Positions 3,076-5,064 of a stretch of DNA of 64,000 bases are shown here, in pieces (the first letter of the stretch is position 1; the number at the start of each line of letters is the position of its first letter). A program made the position numbers and the translations under genes. The stretch is taken from contig KL197715.1 of NCBI GenBank assembly GCA_000697665.1, positions 743,599 to 807,598 of the forward strand, in the 5' to 3' direction. The notes beneath the pieces are model-generated. The model saw nothing but the letters and a program-made list of their open reading frames with translations. It was not told the DNA's origin and did not search any database. Source of the stretch: Jaapia argillacea MUCL 33604. Its lineage: Eukaryota > Basidiomycota > Agaricomycetes > Jaapiales > Jaapiaceae.

Positions 3076-5064
3076 TCACTCTAAGTTGATCGTCCACTCC
3101 CATGTCCCTTCGAGTAGGCCGTTGGCTGTATCTTGTCGAAGAATTTCATGTCTCTTCTGCACGTAGACCTATAGGCACACCCCTGCTCAGCATGACGCCA
3201 CTGAGAAGAGCATTAGCTTCTCACCGTCTTATCAATCATTCTCTGACGGAGGCTTTTGACAGTTTCGGCCTCGATGGGCTCCTCTAACATTTGGGACAAT
3301 TCCTCGACCGCCTTCTCCAGATCCCTGCGCACCAGAATCACGTTGACTAAGGGCTCGATACCAGAGACGGTGAATCACTCACGCTTGTATATCCTCAAAC
3401 ATTTGCTTCTTATTTCCCGAAACCAAGAAATGGGCCATCGCGTAACTCCACTTGAGGGTTCGGCGACACTTGGTCAACTCTTCCACAGCTTGGTCCATAA
3501 ATTTGGCCTTTCAAGGGCCAAGAGGATTACTATGGTGGGTCGAATCCGGAAGCATCCAACGTACCTCTATCCAGGATAGTTGGCTGGCCTCTTGTATTTC
3601 AACGACCTTATCAGCCGTACGCTCGACGAGCTCTTCGTCCAGGTTGGCAGATAACTCGTGGTTGTTGAACCTATCAAAATAAAACAACCACTTGTCTAAA
3701 TTGCGTTTGGCTTCTGTCATCGAGTCGTCGGCGGGGGGCTCTTTCCAGGTGTTGCAAACACTGTCGTTGTATCCGTGCACCTCCCATTTCTGCATGCATA
3801 GCCAGCAGAACATATAATTGCAGTGTCTGCACACCTTCGCGGCGTCGCGGTGTCAATACCGCGACATGAGATATCTTTGAAGTATGTGCGTACCATCCGA
3901 CTTCCGGGGAAACATTGTCAGACTTGTCACATAGAGGAAGCAAACCGTCAACTTACTTGCATCCCCCGCTCTTTTCTATGTTCTGTTGGCATTTCGGACA
4001 GTTACGAGTATTCGCTTTGATCCATTGCGAGGTTCCAGCGTCCTCTCTCGCATTCTTCAACCATATGGCCGCCAGTTGACAAACGATAGGTCGATGGTCA
4101 GAGTCCATTCCGCATCCGAAGCAGAATAAATGTGACTTTGCGCATCCAACGGTTGGGACAATGGTGAGAAGCGTCGATTTGCTAACGCTCGTACAAGACA
4201 CAGTTTCGGTGCAGCCTGGAGAAGGACAGAATCGAAGGCTGGGATGGGCTGCTACGTAAGACTCGAGTAGAAGTTTCTGATACCTGTATGCGAAGATGAG
4301 TGTTCAAGGCGTGCCTAATGAGATAAAGGTCGACGAACCGCGTATGACAATCCTGATCAACGAGCTTCGTTATAGATGGTTCGTCCAAAACCGTTTGACA
4401 CCCATCCTGCATGCACTTGATCGTACACTGCCCCTCATCCATGATTTTGCCCTTTACATATATCTCCCAGCAAGCTGTGCAAAACCGATGTTGGCATCTC
4501 AGCTGGAACGTCTCCTCCAGAGTTGGTGTATCGAAGCAGATCCCGCAGGCAGGGTCTTCACTGGTGTTTGACCTCAGGCGAGGGCGCTTATGGGCATGTG
4601 ACCGAGGTACTGCTTTCACGACGGGCTCTCCAGCATCCTTCAAAACCTCTGTGGGGGACTCCATGTACCGATCGATAAGACGATCCTTGTTCCATCGAAA
4701 GTGACGAAGAAGAATGGATACGATGGGGGGCTTTCGAGGTAGGAGATTGAGTCAGTAACAACAGGAGTACGAGCGAGAGTCATACCTCAGATCCAATGAC
4801 GGCAGCCAAATCTTGGATATCTTGCAGAACCTTTGCTTGCAGACTATCGACAGAAAGACTCTCGTAGTTTAGTTCATAAGGCGGCTTCTTCCCTTTGTCT
4901 TTGGCGGAGGATGAACCAAAGTCGCTTCCGTCCTAGATCCGATGTCGTTCAGCAATTTGGTAAAGTACTTTCGATCCGAACGCAGAGAGGAGACTCACAT
5001 CATCAGGGAAATCATCGTCGTCAAAATCGTAGCCATCGTCCGAGCCACCAGAGTAGTCTGACAT
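3076..5064 (-). CDS. Ariadne-type RBR (RING-IBR-RING) E3 ubiquitin ligase, 508 aa
   Basis: Nine exons (minus strand): 5064-4999, 4932-4786, 4730-4339, 4283-3957, 3900-3894, 3834-3565, 3507-3383, 3324-3225 and 3168-3076. Introns are 55-66 nt and all phases agree. The N-terminus MSDYSGGSDDGYDFDDDDF is the acidic Ariadne start, which decides the ATG over an upstream in-frame start. RING1 is CGICFDT with HRFCTACWEIYV. The IBR follows RFCPSPGC with FCFGCG. RING2 reads NCPKCQQNIEKSGGCNRMVC then FCWLC; the Cys of GGC is the catalytic thioester Cys in this family. The C-terminal Ariadne domain follows (LFYFDRFNNH, SWIEV, CRRTLKWSYAMAHF) and inhibits RING2 in known members. Ariadne ligases take ubiquitin from UBE2L3-like E2 enzymes and often work with cullin-RING ligases. 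Exon 5 is only 7 nt. Confidence 0.93.
3894..3900 (-). other. 7-nt microexon of the RBR ligase
   Basis: The exon TCGGATG lies between a GTAAGT..GGAAG intron (3956-3901, 56 nt, branch-like CTGACAA) and a GTACGC..CGAAG intron (3893-3835, 59 nt). It supplies the last base of an Asn codon plus Arg-Met, giving GGC-NRMV-CRHC as expected for RING2. Other joinings I tried break the frame or the zinc ligands. Confidence 0.85.

Follow-up and report, generated by a model that had tools for sequence, protein, structure and literature searches.

A predicted 7-nt exon at the RING2 active-site codons of an ARIH1-like ubiquitin ligase gene in Jaapia argillacea

The ARIH1-like gene and its 7-nt exon

We analyzed a window of 64,000 nucleotides (this being the whole stretch of Jaapia argillacea DNA under study), the minus strand of which carries a gene for an ARIH1-like RBR ubiquitin ligase (3076..5064, read from 5064 to 3076). 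The gene model has nine coding exons and encodes a protein of 508 amino acids. Pfam analysis and alignment with ARIH1 give the domain order as a UBA-like domain, RING1, IBR, RING2, and an Ariadne domain. The spliced protein produced matches above cut-off to the Pfam families UBA_ARI1, IBR, IBR_1, IBR_2, and Ariadne; RING1 did not reach the Pfam E value of 0.001 in the microexon-included form, yet this region aligned with RING1 of ARIH1. A search of NCBIfam with the protein gave no match. Human ARIH1 is the best relative of known structure (PDB), with a best E value of 1.9e-88, and this match together with the Pfam domains bears out the RBR/Ariadne identity proposed in an earlier note on this DNA. 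Human ARIH1 (HHARI; PDB 5udh, 7b5l, and 2m9y) has the same domain order as the window protein, and the alignment of the two is colinear at RING2, with IEKSGGCNRMVCRH of the window protein set against IEKDGGCNHMVCRN of ARIH1.

The coding sequence for RING2 is interrupted twice directly behind the catalytic cysteine. Based on the gene model and the ARIH1 alignment, exon 4 (3957..4283, minus strand) ends in the catalytic GGC motif, with the Cys codon at 3961-3959, followed by the AA of an Asn codon. Intron 4 (3901..3956, minus strand) is a phase-2 intron of 56 nt with the signals GTAAGT...CTGAC...AAG. Exon 5 (3894..3900, minus strand) consists of the seven nucleotides TCGGATG, which supply the last base of the Asn codon and then codons for Arg and Met. 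Intron 5 (3835..3893, minus strand) is a phase-0 intron of 59 nt with the signals GTACGC...TTGAC...AAG. Exon 6 (3565..3834, minus strand) opens with GTG TGC and encodes the rest of RING2, from VCRHC onward, and the start of the Ariadne domain, as assigned from the gene model, Pfam, and ARIH1. Introns 4 and 5 are both of the GT-AG type, and the six other introns among the eight of the gene are 55-66 nt in length. The position of the microexon and the lengths of its flanking introns, as first proposed, agree with our gene model. We thus find a short exon, flanked by two canonical introns, whose inclusion puts the sequence of a conserved protein back in frame. At the sequence level the 7-nt exon is confirmed, and from this we infer its presence in the mRNA.

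We enumerated the alternative ways in which this region could be spliced, considering only GT or GC donors from the catalytic TGC codon on, only AG acceptors no further than where exon 6 begins, and a minimum intron length of 35 nt. The enumeration yielded 25 single-intron and 15 two-intron choices, a total of 40, with 13 being in the downstream frame. Only two of these 13 are free of stops, and only the microexon choice retains the catalytic Cys and the ligands that follow it; the second employs two GC donors, reads GGFGWYVC, and loses the catalytic Cys. TCGGATG had been claimed as the only sequence able to restore the frame, and it is indeed the sole in-frame, stop-free option among the 40 enumerated that keeps the Cys. 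A microexon that would give N-H-M instead of N-R-M was absent from the in-frame splice combinations.

Searches of the genome at the DNA level, performed with a query of 1101 bases and one of 71 bases covering the intron 5 region, found only the locus itself and no second copy. We rejected a repeat or second-copy origin for the region, as both queries detected this locus alone. One scan each of viral contigs (4 pattern matches) and genome contigs (31) found no relatives.

A second Ariadne gene and the origin of the exon

A search with the window protein identified a second Ariadne gene of the genome on contig C16 (L019), whose model encodes 557 amino acids. The two genes share four introns (introns 2, 4, 7, and 8 of the window gene, matched in position and phase by eye) and have 43% identity over 539 columns (230/539 identical, 436 bits by BLASTP). 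Intron 4 of the window gene corresponds in position and phase to intron 3 of the C16 paralogue. The two genes differ behind the GGC motif, where the paralogue contains one 55-nt intron (L019 2112-2166) of phase 2, splitting the codon as AA|C, and no microexon. In the paralogue, CAC ATG ACG TGC follows this intron uninterrupted and yields the canonical GGC-NHM, whereas the window gene has the microexon and reads NRM. The equivalent of intron 5 is absent from the paralogue. Because the paralogue has a single intron at this place, the 7-nt exon is best viewed as the piece lying between the shared intron and a second intron. The simplest reading of the comparison with this one paralogue would be that intron 5 was gained in the window gene rather than lost from the paralogue.

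Other RBR genes were found to carry introns close by. In three of them, introns lie 1-3 nt from the position of intron 5: in the two L031 genes (both strands) a phase-2 intron interrupts the Met codon at a distance of 1 nt from the intron 5 site, and in L033 a phase-0 intron precedes the Met codon. The readings for L031, L033, and L034 were made by eye from translations. The nearby introns of the two L031 genes and of L033 argue against a simple polarity for intron 5. Of the 12 RBR loci found, 5 have an intron in the N-x-M codons that follow the catalytic Cys of RING2, at four different exact positions, and only the window gene has two introns there; the 12 loci underlie 16 IBR matches and are a lower bound to the number of loci. 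The introns in the N-x-M codons (L031 on both strands, L033, window 3835-3956, and L019 2112-2166) could represent a recurrent intron site or intron sliding. As a separate observation, three RBR-type RING2 domains occur within about 5 kb on one strand at G000:C6:1149470-1154460 (L036), and these are likely to form a tandem cluster.

Intron 5 itself bears some similarity to the exon that follows it. Aligned with the start of exon 6, intron 5 agrees at 19/29 positions over its first 29 nt and at 3/30 over the remaining 30, the region having been chosen post hoc. The match over positions 7-29 was reached by 3/20000 shuffles. The intron 5/exon 6 comparison scored 4.65, with none of the seven other introns of the window gene scoring above 1.3; the controls for this score gave 2/7560 GT sites and 15/15057 pseudo-introns. 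Comparison of intron 5 with the upstream coding sequence revealed no similarity beyond 5 nt. That introns can be gained through tandem duplication has been published (PMC4974935). Such an origin for intron 5 is suggestive but a lead only, because the region was picked after the similarity had been seen and because the match ends after 29 nt.

The altered active site and divergence of the window copy

The microexon places an Arg at the active site of RING2. The catalytic Cys of HHARI is C357, and the catalytic His, H359, lies two residues on (PMC3772753). The N-R-M encoded by the microexon has Arg at the H359 position; His is found there in 11 of the 12 RBR loci found, with the window gene being the sole exception. 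The window protein also differs from HHARI, and from the C16 paralogue, by the absence of the W386-Y387 pair located near the second zinc site, and its segment bounded by the zinc ligands C362 and C367 is two residues shorter than in HHARI. The catalytic Cys (in GGC), the W379 position, and all eight zinc ligands in the alignment (seven Cys and one His, based on the HHARI positions given in PMC3772753) are shared by HHARI and the window protein. The earlier note had the microexon completing the RING2 active-site motif; this is only partly right, as the frame is restored but the motif completed is NRM, which is non-canonical with Arg in place of the catalytic His.

Information on related ligases bears upon the likely consequences of this substitution. 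In parkin, substitution of H433, which matches H359, abolishes the formation of polyubiquitin (PMC3772753). HOIL-1, like the window protein, is an RBR protein that does not have a His two residues past the catalytic Cys; a Trp is found there in HOIL-1, which makes use of another base and an ester-forming chemistry (PMC9853177). The example of HOIL-1 indicates that the catalytic His is usual but not strictly defining for RBR ligases. HOIL-1 differs from the window protein, however, in that it employs a C-terminal His together with an unusual zinc cluster and forms ester links (PMC9853177), whereas the window protein retains the standard RING2 zinc pattern. The presence of Arg at the catalytic His position, coupled with loss of the W-Y pair, casts doubt on ordinary ligase chemistry, and the predicted ligase may thus have weakened or altered chemistry.

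To assess divergence of the window copy, lineage-specific differences were counted over 440 columns with human ARIH1 as reference. The window gene had 69 such differences compared to 31 for the C16 paralogue (p 0.00018). The excess was significant in the Ariadne domain (28 vs 7, p 0.0005), and not significant in RING2 (12 vs 4, p 0.077) or in the region before RING2 (29 vs 20, p 0.25). The human RING2 chain 2m9y scored 61.8 bits with the window protein compared to 106.2 with the paralogue, and Pfam IBR_1 scored 44.8 compared to 68. By the Pfam IBR (60.9 vs 55.8) and Ariadne (51.6 vs 50) scores, the window protein is not the more diverged of the two.

A potential explanation for these differences is that the window gene is a relaxed or decaying duplicate in the course of losing its function, in which case the microexon would be immaterial. 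The faster change, the missing W-Y pair, and an Arg at a position where the His is otherwise present in the RBR loci found are all consistent with decay. But the reading frame is open over nine exons, the catalytic Cys and the eight zinc-ligand positions of RING2 are kept, and the C terminus closely resembles that of the C16 paralogue, features that a dead gene would soon lose. We consequently consider decay of the gene to be unlikely.

Splicing of the exon and its significance

We examined the predicted products of alternative splicing of the region. Skipping of the microexon results in a protein of 349 aa with a stop in exon 6; retention of intron 4, or of introns 4 and 5 together, results in 311 aa, and retention of intron 5 in 371 aa. 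The stop of the skipped form lies 377 nt upstream of the last exon junction, and a stop well upstream of the last junction is a layout that usually invites decay of the transcript. The Pfam matches to IBR_1, IBR_2, and Ariadne are lost from the skipped form. These predictions from the gene model and Pfam are in line with the proposal that skipping would destroy the ligase, since RING2 is ruined. They do not extend to the accompanying proposal that inclusion serves as a switch, which our analysis does not support.

Under that proposal, inclusion of the seven nucleotides versus their skipping would turn the ligase on or off. Skipping would truncate RING2 and the Ariadne domain, and AAG serves as the acceptor of the intron on either side. 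AAG acceptors are found in introns 2, 4, 5, and 6 of the window gene (4/8) and in none of the introns of the C16 paralogue (0/7; Fisher p 0.077); after adding three introns of L031 and L033 identified by eye, the count outside the window gene is 0/10 (p 0.023). The AAG acceptors of introns 4 and 5 are possibly weak and mildly favor the idea of weak splicing; they leave room for inefficient splicing but do not demonstrate regulation. A microexon switch is also known from the Xlr2 gene of Trichoderma virens, in which glucose-dependent use was shown by experiment (PMC11121469). As predicted for the window gene, leaving out this fungal microexon deprives the protein of a key domain; Xlr2, however, is an ascomycete transcription factor for which use was shown experimentally (PMC11121469), whereas the window microexon is a prediction from sequence and homology. 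Against regulation, the intron lengths are standard (56 and 59 nt, compared to 55-66 nt for the others), intron 4 has a perfect GTAAGT donor, and both introns contain good branch-site candidates (CTGAC in intron 4 and TTGAC in intron 5) at 21-22 nt from their 3' ends. In addition, the product of skipping is a frameshift rather than an alternative protein. Given the normal lengths of the introns and their branch-site candidates, default inclusion is the simpler reading, and a regulated switch seems quite unlikely.

Intron 5 also contains a perfect 8-bp inverted repeat (3844..3865, minus strand), the 6-nt loop of which holds the TTGAC branch-site candidate. We rejected this hairpin as a control element because the fold is not unusual (z -1.60), with 15/200 shuffles being as stable, which is not significant; this too argues against regulation.

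A more elaborate scenario would join several of these elements: an intron 5 derived by tandem duplication from the first part of exon 6 and placed beside an older intron, a resulting 7-nt cassette that holds the three residues behind the catalytic Cys at a recurrent intron site, the change of His to Arg in the same copy, and weak AAG acceptors through which inclusion tunes a ligase of altered chemistry. Taken as a whole, we regard this scenario as quite improbable too.

To determine how readily such an exon appears by chance, we compared the 122-nt stretch with 20000 dinucleotide-shuffled versions of itself, keeping the end signals and requiring introns of at least 45 nt. An in-frame, stop-free microexon of any length from 4 to 28 nt was present in 3911/20000 shuffles, a 7-nt microexon in 926/20000, and a 7-nt microexon starting with N in 493/20000. 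A 7-nt microexon reading N-x-M was present in 10/20000. These counts indicate that a small exon per se is not rare by chance, but that one spelling the family motif is. An assembly error or another gene structure that mimics a microexon is highly improbable in view of this rarity, the single splice solution, and the canonical nature of both introns.

The reading that we favor, to which we assign a probability of roughly 0.8, is that the window gene is a diverged ARIH1-type duplicate with a genuine 7-nt coding exon, inclusion being most likely the default rather than a demonstrated switch. The shared phase-2 intron (AA|Y) would split the Asn codon that directly follows that of the catalytic Cys, and the second, phase-0 intron 7 nt downstream would isolate TCGGATG as an exon. 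In small-intron genomes, short introns are generally recognized as units. Were introns 4 and 5, at 56 and 59 nt, each recognized and removed in this way, the exon would be included by default; the two would probably be excised in sequence, since an exon of 7 nt is too small to accommodate two complexes simultaneously. Skipping or retention would give products with early stops that are predicted to be non-functional and are probably degraded.

Very short fungal exons and a fungal microexon switch have already been published (PMC1184071, PMC11121469). The P450 genes of Phanerochaete chrysosporium, a white-rot basidiomycete, contain exons down to 6 bp and resemble the window gene in their small introns and very short exons; they belong to another family, and that paper deals with alternative splicing rather than with an active-site codon trio (PMC1184071). 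Codon-sized microexons are mentioned for Tuber with citation of other work (PMC4986451), and PMC3990503 and PMC4014442 mention only the settings of microexon searches. In the open-licence literature we found no report of a microexon in an RBR ubiquitin ligase, and nothing on the intron structure of fungal Ariadne/RBR genes. The window gene would neatly illustrate one way in which exons this short originate, by means of a second intron beside an existing one, seen here through a paralogue of the same genome. It also carries a practical warning, in that a gene finder that overlooked an exon of 7 nt would lose the reading frame in the active-site codons. Finally, the predicted loss of the catalytic His from an otherwise intact Ariadne ligase offers a testable lead on the chemistry of the RBR family.
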